43,902 bases of DNA from Dehalococcoidia bacterium (GTDB lineage: Bacteria; Chloroflexota; Dehalococcoidia; CAUJGQ01): positions 1-43,902 of the forward strand of contig DATGEL010000012.1 of the NCBI GenBank assembly GCA_035310145.1. Reading direction: 5' to 3'. The notes under the pieces were generated by a model that saw only the letters and a list, made by a program, of their open reading frames with translations, was not told where the DNA came from and did not search any database. Made by a program: the position numbers and the translations under genes. This document shows, piece by piece, positions 3,418 through 43,902 of this stretch; the first letter of the stretch is position 1; the number at the start of each line of letters is the position of its first letter.

Positions 3418-4752
3418 ATGGTCGCGGAGGCAACGTCAACCAGCTGGCGCACCCGCTACGCGGACAAGCTCGTCTCGCCCGAGGAGGCGGTGCAGGTGGT
3501 GAAGGACGGCGACTCCGTCTGGCTCGGCGGCTGGACGGGCACGCCCGCCACGCTGGCGAAGGCGCTGGGCAACCGCGCCGGCGCCCTGCGCCACGTGGCG
3601 ATCGAGACCTTCCTCTCGCCCTACCAGTGGGACTTCAGCGGCCGCGAGCAGAGCTTCTCCGTGCGCACGTTCTACGCCGGGCCGCTGGACCGCGAGGGCA
3701 CGCGCAACAACCGCTTCGAGTACATTCCCCTCTGCCAGTGGCGCGAGGGCGAGGCGCCGCCCGGCATCGCCGCGCCGCACGACGTGAGCATGGTCAACAT
3801 CTCGGCGCCCGACGACGAAGGCTGGTGCTCGTTCGGCGGCGCCGTCTGGTTCGCGCACTCCGTCACGATGAAGGCGAAGACGATCGTGGGCGAGGTGCAC
3901 GAGGACTGGATCCGCACCGGTGGCCAGAACCGCGTGCACGTTTCGCAGTTCGGGCGGCTGGCGCTGGCCCAGCCCTCGCCCGAGCCGCCGGTGATGGCCC
4001 GCAGCGAGGAGACGATCTACGCCGCCGAAGTCATCTGCACGCTGCTTGCCAGCGAGATCGTCAAGGACGGCATGACGCTGCAGATCGGCGTGGGCGACGT
4101 CTCCGCGGCGCTGCTCGCCTACTTGGGCGACAAGCACGACCTGGGCATCCATTCGGAGATGATTCCGGGCGGCATCGTCGATCTGGTCCGGAACGGCGTC
4201 GTCACCGGCAAGCACTACACGCTGCACCCGGGCAAGGTTGTCGGCTCGGCGCTGGTGCTGATGCCGCGCGAAGACCTCGCGTTCATCGACGGCAACCCCA
4301 TGTTCGAGCTGTACGACTTCACGCACACGGATGACCTGCGCAACCTGCTGCGTATCGAGAACTTCTTCGCGGTGAACAACGCCATGGAGGTGGACATCAC
4401 CGGCAACGTCTGCTCGGAGACGCGCGGGCCGCAGGTCTACAGCGGGCCGGGCGGTCAGCCCGTGTTCGGGATCGCCTCGTCCACCAGCTCGGGAGGCTCG
4501 TGCGTCGTGTTGCCCTCGTCGCAGCTCGTGGACGGCGCGCGCTATCCGCGCATCGTCTCGCGGCTGGAGCACGGCGCCACAGCCACGCAGCACCGCGGCT
4601 ACGTGGACTACGTGGTGACGGAGCAGGGCATCGCGCGCCTGCGCGGCAAGACGCTGCGCGAGCGCATCGGCGAGCTGATCAGCGTGGCGCACCCCGACTT
4701 CCGCGCCGAACTGAAGGCGGACGCGCGCCGGCTCTACGGCGTGGACGTGTAG
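3418..4752 (+). CDS. Acetyl-CoA hydrolase/transferase family protein (4-hydroxybutyrate / butyrate CoA-transferase type)
   Basis: A 444-residue cytoplasmic enzyme of the family that moves CoA between acetate and acids such as 4-hydroxybutyrate, butyrate or succinate, through a glutamyl-CoA intermediate. The N-terminal half starts with YADKLVSPEEAVQVVKDGD. The predicted catalytic glutamate is E247 in LGIHSEMIPGG. The C-terminal half has the glycine-rich stretch YSGPGGQPVFGIASS and the terminal ISVAHPDFRAEL block typical of the family. Length is normal. The substrate cannot be read from sequence. GAGGAGGAGC just before the ATG supports the start. A second family member lies at 37428-38915. The gene appears monocistronic, with a possible GntR-type operator upstream. 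Confidence 0.9.
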   Translation: MVAEATSTSWRTRYADKLVSPEEAVQVVKDGDSVWLGGWTGTPATLAKALGNRAGALRHVAIETFLSPYQWDFSGREQSFSVRTFYAGPLDREGTRNNRFEYIPLCQWREGEAPPGIAAPHDVSMVNISAPDDEGWCSFGGAVWFAHSVTMKAKTIVGEVHEDWIRTGGQNRVHVSQFGRLALAQPSPEPPVMARSEETIYAAEVICTLLASEIVKDGMTLQIGVGDVSAALLAYLGDKHDLGIHSEMIPGGIVDLVRNGVVTGKHYTLHPGKVVGSALVLMPREDLAFIDGNPMFELYDFTHTDDLRNLLRIENFFAVNNAMEVDITGNVCSETRGPQVYSGPGGQPVFGIASSTSSGGSCVVLPSSQLVDGARYPRIVSRLEHGATATQHRGYVDYVVTEQGIARLRGKTLRERIGELISVAHPDFRAELKADARRLYGVDV

Positions 4753-40420: not shown

Positions 40421-40948
40421 CTACGCGGCGAACTGCTGGGCGATCGCCTGCAACTGACGCAGGTGGTCGAGGTCGTGTACGCGCATGAACAGCAGCCACT
40501 CGCGCCAGTTGAAGGCGCCAAAGGTCTGATGGGTGATCGCGATCTCGAGGTGCTCGTCGCCGCGGGCATGCAGCACGCGGGCGAGCAGTTGCTCGCGCCG
40601 CCGCGTATGCGCTTGCCAGTAGGCCTCGGCCGTGGTCAGGCCGGCGCTGGTTTCGCCCGAGATCGTGTCACGCACGGGCGGCGGCAGGGCGCCGCCATCG
40701 AGGATGCCCTCGATCGCGCGGGCGCCCGTCTCGTTCATCTGCAGGATGTGGGTGTAGACCTCCGCCGCCGACCAGGCGTCTGGGCCGGGGCGCTCAGCGA
40801 AGCGTGCGGCGGGCACGGCGGCGCCGGCCTCGCGCAGCGGCATGGTATCGCGGCGCACCTTCTCCACCAGTTCGGGAATGCTGAGCTTGTTCGCCTGCGC
40901 CAGGAGATAGCCGCGCACACGCTGGGCTTCGTCGGCTTGCGTTGTCAT
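40421..40948 (-). CDS. DinB-family protein, next to the HxlR regulator
   Basis: A 175-residue four-helix-bundle protein of the DinB superfamily. Candidate metal histidines are in AEVYTHILQMNETGARA, ITHQTFGAFNWREW and the C-terminal RVHDLDHLRQLQAI. Members are metal-dependent thiol transferases or unknown. ATG 40948 has AGGAGA at 8-bp spacing; ATG 40954 is too close to it. It is divergent from an HxlR gene across a palindromic operator at 40997, so it is a likely target of that regulator. The LLM gene follows on the same strand. Confidence 0.83.
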   Translation of the reverse strand: MTTQADEAQRVRGYLLAQANKLSIPELVEKVRRDTMPLREAGAAVPAARFAERPGPDAWSAAEVYTHILQMNETGARAIEGILDGGALPPPVRDTISGETSAGLTTAEAYWQAHTRRREQLLARVLHARGDEHLEIAITHQTFGAFNWREWLLFMRVHDLDHLRQLQAIAQQFAA

Positions 40949-40996
40949 CGCCATTCTCCTGCGCCGCGGGCGCGGCCCGGCTGCGTTGTATGGGAT

Positions 40997-41013
40997 ACTA
41001 TCTTCAAGATAGT
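40997..41013. promoter_or_regulatory. Palindromic operator in the DinB/HxlR divergent promoter
   Basis: ACTATCTT-C-AAGATAGT is a perfect 8-bp inverted repeat, rare and AT-rich in this GC-rich DNA. It is 49 bp upstream of the DinB gene and 85 bp upstream of the HxlR gene. HxlR-type regulators bind such sites and often regulate a divergent neighbour. Confidence 0.65.
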
Positions 41014-41097
41014 TCACGGTCAAGCGGGGTGGCTGGATCGCCCGCGTCCAGAGTGCGGCTGCACAGCGCGGGCACGCGGGGAACGGGAGTACCGCAG

Positions 41098-41781
41098 GTG
41101 GCGAGAACGCGCAGCTATCAGCACTTCTGCCCGGTGGCGCGCTCGCTGGAGCTGATCGGCGAGAAGTGGTCGTTGTTGGTGGTGCGCGATCTGCTGCGCG
41201 GTCCGCAGCGCTTCAGCGACCTGCTCGCATCGCTGGGCGGCATCACGCCGAAGTGGCTGACGCTGCGGCTGCGCGAGCTGGAGGCGGCCGGCATCGTCGC
41301 GCGCGACGCGCGGCCGGGGCGGCGCGAGGTCTGGTATCAGCTCACCGCGGCGGGGCGCGACCTGGCGCCGGTAGTGGAAGCGCTTTCGGTATGGGGCGTC
41401 GAGCATGCGATCCGGCCGCCGCAGCTCGGCGAGGCGGTGCACCCGGCGCAGACGATGTCGGGCATCGCCAGCGTGCTGAACCGGCGCGGCCGCCTCCTCG
41501 AGCGGCCGGCGGTCTGGGTGATTCGCTTCGCGGCCGATCGCGCCTGGACGCTGCGCTGTGACGGCGCCCGTTGGTCCGTGCAGCGCGGCGCCGCCGAGCC
41601 GGCCGACCTGGCGATCGAGGCGACGCCGGAAGCGTGGGTGACGTTTCTGCTCACGCCGCCGCCGCAGCGGGCGGCGCTGCTGGGCGGCCTGCGCGTCAGC
41701 GGCGCCGCCGAGCAGCTTGAGCTGCTCGTCAACCGCTTCGGCTGGTGGGAACGGCCGGCCCGCGCGGCGGCGCAGCCGTAG
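41098..41781 (+). CDS. HxlR-family transcription regulator with C-terminal SCP2-like extension
   Basis: A 227-residue regulator. Residues 1-105 form the HxlR winged helix: YQHFCPVARSLELIGEKWSL with the N-terminal cysteine (C11) often used for redox or electrophile sensing, then RFSDLLASLGGITPKWLTLRL and REVWYQLTAAGRDLAPV. Residues about 110-227 are an extension with AVWVIRFAADRAWTLRCDG, DLAIEATPEAWVTFLL and LGGLRVSGAAEQLELLVNRF, like an SCP2 sterol-carrier-type domain, which could bind a ligand. GTG 41098 has GGGAG upstream at 9 bp. It is divergent from the DinB-LLM unit. Confidence 0.87.
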   Translation: MARTRSYQHFCPVARSLELIGEKWSLLVVRDLLRGPQRFSDLLASLGGITPKWLTLRLRELEAAGIVARDARPGRREVWYQLTAAGRDLAPVVEALSVWGVEHAIRPPQLGEAVHPAQTMSGIASVLNRRGRLLERPAVWVIRFAADRAWTLRCDGARWSVQRGAAEPADLAIEATPEAWVTFLLTPPPQRAALLGGLRVSGAAEQLELLVNRFGWWERPARAAAQP

Positions 41782-41868: not shown

Positions 41869-42675
41869 ATGCGCCCTCTGCCCCGTCGCGTGTATGTCGC
41901 GGTGGCGATCGTCGCCGTTGCCGCGGTCGTTGCTTTTGGTATCGCGGTCGCGGTGTCGCCGTGGCAGCCGCGGCTGGTCACCTGGCTGATGGCCGGCGAG
42001 ATCGGCGTCGCGGTCGTGGCCTCGCTGCTCGTACCGGTGCCGCTCGCCACGCGCACCTTGCACTACGTCAATACGACGGCCTTCCTGCTGGCCGCAGTGC
42101 TCTTGCCGGCGCCGCTCGCGATGGTTGAGGCGGCGCTCGCCTGGATCATCACGGATCAGGTCCGCCGCGCGGGTTGGCGGGCGGCGCGCCAGATCCCCTG
42201 GATTGAGACGGTGTTCAACGCCGCACAGGTGGCCCTGCGCGTCGCGGCGGGAGCGATCGTCTTCCGTTCGGTGAGCGGCGTGCCGCTGGTGGACGGAACG
42301 CTCACCGATCGGATGCTGCTCGCCGTTGTGGCGGCCGGCGTCGCGATGTACCTGACGAATCAAGTCCTCGTGCAAGGCATCGTGAGCGTGCAGTCCGGCC
42401 GCTGGCGCCTTGGGGCACTGCTTCGGCTCGTGCGCGTGGACCTGGTGCAGGAAGGTTCCTTGCTGCTGCTGGGCGTGCTCGGCGCGATCATCGCCGGGCG
42501 CGCTCCGCTGGCGATCGCCGTACCGCTTGCCTGCACCATCGTGATCCACCGCGAACTCTCGCGCTCACGCGGCGAGGCGCTGGTGGATGTCACAGGATCG
42601 GATGCCCCTCCGCGCCTGGCGGCCGCCCCGAGCGCGACGGCGCCGCTCACCGCCATGTTCTGGTGGGCGAGCTGA
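41869..42675 (+). CDS. Multi-pass membrane protein, isolated MASE-like sensor domain
   Basis: A 268-residue integral membrane protein with about six or seven helices (VYVAVAIVAVAAVVAFGIAV, LVTWLMAGEIGVAVVASLLV, TTAFLLAAVLLPAPLAMVEA, MLLAVVAAGVAMYLTNQVLV, GSLLLLGVLGAIIAGRAPLA). It resembles the N-terminal membrane domain that in related bacteria precedes GGDEF or HD-GYP output domains. Here the frame stops about 25 residues after the last helix (VIHRELSRSRGEALVDVTG), so no output domain is present. Such a protein may be a truncated signal protein or a partner of another. Start ATG 41869 lacks a strong ribosome site. Confidence 0.7.
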   Translation: MRPLPRRVYVAVAIVAVAAVVAFGIAVAVSPWQPRLVTWLMAGEIGVAVVASLLVPVPLATRTLHYVNTTAFLLAAVLLPAPLAMVEAALAWIITDQVRRAGWRAARQIPWIETVFNAAQVALRVAAGAIVFRSVSGVPLVDGTLTDRMLLAVVAAGVAMYLTNQVLVQGIVSVQSGRWRLGALLRLVRVDLVQEGSLLLLGVLGAIIAGRAPLAIAVPLACTIVIHRELSRSRGEALVDVTGSDAPPRLAAAPSATAPLTAMFWWAS

Positions 42676-42712
42676 CAGACCGACCCGATGGTTCACACCC
42701 GCAACGAGTGGG

Positions 42713-42853
42713 CTAGCAGCCGGCACACCAGCTCATATCGGCGTGCACCGGCGTGGCCTGATGGCCGGCGCCGATGCCGCCGCCCACCGCCGCCAGACCA
42801 AGCACCGCCGCCACCAGCAAGCCGCGCAGCCCGAAGCGCTTTACCCGACGCAT
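42713..42853 (-). CDS. Tiny exported peptide precursor ending in CxxC
   Basis: A 46-residue product. The basic start MRRVKRFGLRG, hydrophobic core LLVAAVLGLAAVGGGIGAGH and a PVHA cleavage-type site form a signal peptide. Only DMSWCAGC would follow, an octapeptide with two cysteines. AAGGAG lies about 7 bp before ATG 42853, so translation is plausible; an in-frame ATG further upstream adds only polar residues. Signal-like peptide, redox or metal-binding tag, or lipid-anchored peptide are all possible; no function is assigned. Neighbours give no hint. Confidence 0.5.
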   Translation of the reverse strand: MRRVKRFGLRGLLVAAVLGLAAVGGGIGAGHQATPVHADMSWCAGC

Positions 42854-43137
42854 CTCGTTCTCCTTCGTAGCCATGCGGCGTTGTGCCGCACCTTGAGCAA
42901 CGAAGGCAGGCGCTCCCTCCCGCAGCGGCGCCGAGTAACGGAACAGGAACAGATGCGTTGCGGGCCGGTCTCGGCGTTCATGGCGCGGCGCGGCCTCGGC
43001 TGGCAAGCGACCCACGGCGTCTGGCCGGATGCGGCGCAACTGCATGCGGCGGCGTCAGACCCTCGGCCGGTGGCGGCAGTCAGGCACTCACGAAACACCA
43101 ACCGCAAGGAGGAGCGAACCACGATCGGCAATGAAGC

Positions 43138-43167
43138 GAGTGCCGCCGCCCACGGGCGGCGGCACTC
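43138..43167 (-). terminator. Terminator hairpin of the 43174 lipoprotein gene
   Basis: A perfect 14-bp stem (GAGTGCCGCCGCCC at 43138-43151, complement 43154-43167) with an AC loop lies 6 bp after the stop on the minus strand. The rest of gene-free stretch 42854-43173 shows nothing convincing. Confidence 0.7.
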
Positions 43168-43173
43168 ATGCAT

Positions 43174-43902
43174 TCACTGCTGAACGAGCGAGAGATACAC
43201 GCGACTCTGGTTTCCAGCCAGAAATGGGTTGTCAAACATCACCAGCGAGCCGGCGTCCGACGAACGTATCTCCCAACAGAGATTGCCGCTGATGGTGCCC
43301 CCGGTGAAGGTTTCCGAGTCGGGCAGCTCGTTTGGGATCACGCCGCAGCTATTGTCGAAGGTCGAGTAAGCGACGGCGCTGGCGCCGACCGCCCGCAGGC
43401 GAAAACCGCCATCGAGCTTCGCTGAGCCGGAACCGGTAAACGTGGCCTGCAGTTGCGCGATGAAGAATTGGTGATCTGCCGCAGGCGGTTTGTTGAATTG
43501 ATTCCGCACAAGCACCGCCTGCGTCGCGTTCGGCTGGACGGATAGCACCTTTACGCGCCAACCGTCGCCCAGGGCAACCTCGGTATTGACGGGAACGGGG
43601 TTTTCGCGCGTGCCGGCCGCAGCAGGAGTGGGACTCGGCGATGGACTGGGCGTGCGTGTCGGCGGTGGCGTGACCGTGACGAGCACGGTCTTCACGACGG
43701 GCGCCGGCGTATCCTGCGCCTGTTTCTGCAACGCAGCGACCGTGGCCTGCAGATCGGCAAGCTGCTGATTTTGCGCGCTGATCGTCGCCTGCAGATTCCT
43801 TGTGTCCGGAGCGGCGGCGGCCACACTGGCGGCCGGCGGCCTGGTGGCGTTCGCCTTTGCGCTGGACCTGGTCGCGTTGTTGTTGCCGCTGCAGGCGGCG
43901 AG
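43174..43902 (-). CDS. Lipoprotein with coiled coil and DUF4352-like domain (5' end outside window)
   Basis: The frame runs off the right edge. The first visible residues LAACSGNNNATRS are a lipobox and the start of the mature lipoprotein, so only the signal peptide is missing. Then follow a coiled coil (LQATISAQNQQLADLQATVA), a Pro/Thr/Ser linker (TPPPTRTPSPSPSPTPAA) and a C-terminal immunoglobulin-like domain: NPVPVNTEVALGDGWRVKVL, VLVRNQFNKPPAADHQFFIA and DSETFTGGTISGNLCWEI. This arrangement fits DUF4352/telokin-like extracellular proteins. A GTG at 43824 is in frame but would drop the lipobox, so it is not the true start. Function unknown. Confidence 0.8.
   Translation of the reverse strand, partial: LAACSGNNNATRSSAKANATRPPAASVAAAAPDTRNLQATISAQNQQLADLQATVAALQKQAQDTPAPVVKTVLVTVTPPPTRTPSPSPSPTPAAAGTRENPVPVNTEVALGDGWRVKVLSVQPNATQAVLVRNQFNKPPAADHQFFIAQLQATFTGSGSAKLDGGFRLRAVGASAVAYSTFDNSCGVIPNELPDSETFTGGTISGNLCWEIRSSDAGSLVMFDNPFLAGNQSRVYLSLVQQ

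Follow-up and report, generated by a model that had tools for sequence, protein, structure and literature searches.

This analysis identified an apparently undescribed two-gene sensing module, found across the phylum, in which a small exported protein with a conserved Trp-Cys near its mature N-terminus is encoded beside a MASE9-like membrane sensor. A 46-codon open reading frame in the window (the whole stretch of DNA analysed, 43,902 nucleotides) is, at a rough probability of 0.55, the leftover 5′ end of one such exported-partner gene, and its locus the remnant of a rearranged pair. The wider module is a more interesting result than the octapeptide that this reading frame would release. The features of the locus, in window coordinates, are as follows.

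42713 to 42853, minus strand: open reading frame with its stop codon, encoding a signal peptide and the mature octapeptide DMSWCAGC (from translation and codon use)
42860 to 42865, minus strand: ribosome-binding site AAGGAG, six bases 5′ of the ATG (from the sequence)
42740 to 42853, minus strand: predicted signal peptide of 38 residues ending PVHA (from simple rules and the cleavage site shared in the family alignment)
42716 to 42739, minus strand: mature octapeptide, whose W42-C43 occupies mature +4/+5, the register of the exported WC family
42676 to 42712, no strand: 37-bp junction between two facing 3′ ends, with no remnant of the family body in any frame
41869 to 42675, plus strand: stand-alone MASE9-like membrane protein of 268 aa, the convergent neighbour, in which the histidine kinase or HD-GYP output domain of its relatives is absent
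42586 to 42672, plus strand: last 29 codons of this sensor, unalignable to relatives past the linker and with the coding GC pattern lost

The reading frame (window 42853-42713, minus strand; 46 codons and a stop) translates as MRRVKRFGLRGLLVAAVLGLAAVGGGIGAGHQATPVHADMSWCAGC and looks like a genuine gene. Its GC content at the three codon positions (76, 59 and 85 %) has the pattern of a gene in this 70 % GC genome, and the codon score is positive in its own frame and negative in both shifted frames of the same strand. The frame upstream is open, and an in-frame ATG seven codons earlier, which would give 53 aa, has no ribosome site. The original prediction had described an export signal ending PVHA and a good ribosome site before the ATG, and both are borne out, the former by simple rules together with a family alignment in which the cleavage site recurs. 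Judged from its sequence, the product would be exported if expressed. Strong ribosome sites combined with a signal-like start and a short tail occur in a handful of reading frames in 2.23 Mb of the same genome, the convincing ones being, by the author's reading, this one and a duplicated pair on contig C104. A WC at mature +3 to +6 was found in one out of 208 signal-like reading frames in the genome sample, namely this one.

Direct homologues with an invariant C-terminal WCxxC, for which the original prediction had suggested a search, did not emerge. Comparison of the 46-aa protein with 60 relatives gave chance matches only, each of which was inspected; pattern and tblastn searches of GTDB contigs gave pattern matches and no confirmed relative, plasmids gave nothing, and no named relatives were reached through the neighbouring gene in the GTDB contigs. 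Among the genomes compared, the same-family relative of the source genome is G001 only, which belongs to a different genus. Within the source genome, no convincing sibling was seen among the other WCxxC-stop reading frames inspected. An Rfam search gave no credible match, and no promoter-like site was found for the reading frame. It is not an attenuator or leader peptide, since the next gene downstream is convergent.

That convergent gene encodes the 268-aa membrane protein. Its match to MASE9 (PF20972; E 0.0022, 18.4 bits) and that of the sensor at locus L025 (20.4 bits) both lie below the Pfam curated cut-off of 24.3, and the label MASE9-like is therefore used. The class sample contains 18 other genomes with relatives of the gene. 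Most matches there are membrane domains at the N-terminus of proteins about 430-540 aa long, and in the six that were compared with Pfam, HisKA-HATPase or HD domains are present. The window sensor aligns with its relatives as far as residue 239 or so, close to the linker at which their HD-GYP or HisKA domain starts, and is the sole aligned sensor without an output domain. The frame of its membrane domain is open and intact, and the domain scores 127 bits against the profile. In the searched parts of the genome there are only two strong MASE9-like genes, this one and that of an intact pair on contig C83.

Inspection of the flanks of sensor genes related to the neighbour revealed small exported reading frames directly upstream. 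A family profile built from three of these (A2) recovered further members by sequence alone, others came from flank inspection, and a profile of eight full-length members (A3) brought in more from the class and phylum samples; phylum-wide here means the phylum genome sample searched with the family profile, and the phylum is probably Chloroflexota, judging by gene content and the make-up of the class sample. The mature N-terminus has the form A|xxxWCxxDP, commonly followed by [IV][IV]xxNG, with W at mature +4 in 26 of 33 members and C at +5 in 27 of 33. The proteins are mostly 140-170 aa, of which the mature part is mostly 100-140 residues. Neither Pfam nor NCBIfam has a model for the family, no Pfam domain was found in it, and a PDB search with it returned insignificant matches only. 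A short subfamily of 77-80 aa (L025, L026, and L033) lies beside MASE9-like histidine kinases and shares the C-terminus ST[DE][KR]GG.N.HK.

Of the 35 unique loci, 27 are followed directly, on the same strand and under a strict distance rule, by a MASE9-like gene. In two loci beyond these, L296 and L297, the MASE9-like gene is in an overlapping frame, and the L290 locus is at a contig end. As a rule the downstream sensors carry a fused histidine kinase or HD-GYP domain, and the family is common to these two output types. G001 has three such pairs and the source genome one intact pair (contig C83; L250/L270), whose sensor is of the HD-GYP type. That members found by sequence profile, independently of gene order, were then seen beside MASE9-like sensors supports the pairing. 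In the open literature searched no account of this pairing was found, and none naming MASE9. In the intact pairs, the exported protein may be an extracytoplasmic partner that sets the activity of the sensor, and the module offers a testable candidate for the input to MASE9-like domains, namely an exported protein dedicated to the sensor and bearing the conserved Trp-Cys close to its N-terminus.

A known likeness is functional only. In the DbfQ-DbfS system of Vibrio cholerae (PMC12714742) a small Sec-exported protein is likewise encoded beside a membrane sensor, and the WC pairs may work in a similar way. DbfQ has a PepSY domain and its binding is established (PMC12714742), whereas the WC family is inferred to bind; no PepSY match was found in eight members of the family or in the 46-codon reading frame.

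The reading frame shares part of the family pattern. A Sec-type signal peptide is predicted, behind which xxxWC places its last two residues at mature +4/+5, and its ADMSWC matches ADVVWC of G001 in four of six residues at the same spacing from the cleavage site. The DP that follows WC and the body of about 100 residues are absent, the protein stopping at WCAGC, and therefore it is called a likely stub and not a full member. The adjacent gene has a MASE9-like membrane domain, but is convergent instead of co-directional. With the family profile, the signal peptide and WCA align at a weak 10.6 bits, and with the N-terminal profile unrelated decoy signal peptides score comparably or higher, so the score was rejected as proof of membership. 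The assignment therefore rests on the rare register of WC and on the adjacency to a MASE9-like gene. As the link was reached through the neighbour and not through the peptide sequence, these two pieces of evidence are for the most part independent of each other, although the judgement is post hoc. In the pair on C83 and those of G001 there is likewise a signal peptide, its cleavage site is followed by xxxWC at an identical spacing, and the partner genes have the same membrane domain as the window sensor. These pairs differ from the window pair in having a full-length body (about 130 mature residues) and a sensor with an output domain, and in being co-directional and nearly overlapping.

Co-direction is seen in every pair other than that of the window. 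The ancestor may have been a co-directional pair, with an xxxWCxxDP exported protein just upstream of a MASE9-like sensor with histidine-kinase or HD-GYP output. A rearrangement, such as an inversion that broke each gene once and was accompanied by loss of the pieces removed, would have left the signal peptide with eight residues opposite a sensor without its output domain; because the removed gene pieces were not found, further loss has to be assumed. No remnant of the family body was detected in any frame downstream of the reading frame. A frameshift was considered because the +1 frame beyond WC gives PAASPLVAGVNHRVGL, in which a likeness to DPVISVNG can be seen by eye, and was rejected when 654 of 3000 shuffles scored as high or higher. 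We infer truncation and inversion from these comparisons, and the locus is probably a non-functional or residual pair, its stub no longer part of a working circuit. Counting against a remnant, both frames are intact with good codon use, and decay is thus invisible.

The original prediction gave weight to the cysteine motif and proposed a precursor of a peptide signal, a redox or metal ligand, or a substrate for modification. The WC probably does matter, given its position in the family; the second cysteine of CxxC is outside the conserved pattern, and therefore the mature length of eight residues most likely reflects truncation. The form conserved elsewhere is an N-terminal mature xxxWC, then DP, then about 100 more residues, which makes such a precursor less likely than truncation. 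The anatomy would fit a secreted octapeptide of its own kind, and the same genome has a duplicated precursor with an eight-residue tail, DGIESWGH, beside an Os1348-type leader. Against this, no homologue was found in which a messenger or RiPP core peptide might be conserved, no gene for maturation, processing, transport or modification was identified among the adjacent genes scanned, and the family evidence better accounts for the WC. A messenger octapeptide has no positive support and is very unlikely. Chance is a more serious, if still unlikely, alternative to the remnant: a small and unrelated exported protein, or else a spurious reading frame, could have a fortuitous WC beside a MASE9-like gene. 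The weak profile score and the convergent orientation are in keeping with this, and signal-like reading frames arise also in shuffled GC-rich sequence, but WC in that position is rare (1/208), as are MASE9-like neighbours in this genome.

It is also conceivable, though distinctly doubtful, that the two genes are a minimal functional pair, in which the octapeptide keeps the xxxWC tip and acts on a stand-alone MASE9-like receptor that signals via another protein; the tip itself would then be what the sensor recognises. The ribosome site, signal peptide and codon use are all intact, conservation within the family is highest at the residues kept, and the receptor retains its complete membrane domain (127 bits). 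Yet a form this short, or a sensor without output paired with it, is seen in no relative, the gene order is inverted, and the conserved DP has been lost with the entire domain body. Lastly, a chimeric join at 42676-42712 could have brought two cut genes together in the assembly, a draft of 148 contigs in which the locus lies <1.3 kb from a contig end. This is the most improbable of the explanations: there is no long repeat at the junction, and the HD-GYP matches elsewhere in the genome are all in long open frames, so that no orphan output domain is seen, a mild argument against a chimeric contig. The leftover of an exported-partner gene is the preferred reading.

In addition, the genome has a better candidate than the 46-codon reading frame for a duplicated exported-peptide gene. 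On contig C104 (L132; G000:C104:30001-50000, minus strand, 3501-3623 and 3952-4074) two near-identical 40-aa reading frames, M[ST]YLRTHLHLLLALAAGPLALFLASPHAKALADGIESWGH, lie about 450 bp apart, each with a signal-like start and the tail DGIESWGH. Between them is a 77-aa reading frame with a sub-cut-off match to the Os1348-family NHLP leader, and upstream is a 1052-aa BTAD/TPR regulator; searches for relatives of the 40-aa reading frames found none. A BTAD regulator link for the window locus, suggested by these precursors, was discarded, the genome having only two BTAD genes, neither of them near the 46-codon reading frame.

Elsewhere in the window, an open frame at 43174-43902 (minus strand), cut by the contig end, starts LAACSGNNN in the manner of a lipoprotein and has a Pro/Thr/Ser-rich linker; it matches no Pfam family and has partial relatives in the class, the best at 47 % over 169 aa (G297). 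Just downstream of this putative lipoprotein gene, at 43138-43167, is a perfect inverted repeat of 14 bp whose arms are 2 nt apart (RNA fold z = -6.9), which is terminator-like without a clear T run. On the other side of the sensor, at 40942-41781 (plus strand), an HxlR-type regulator has at its C-terminus a fused SCP2-like domain, matched below the cut-off, and adjoins DinB-like and F420-dependent oxidoreductase genes.
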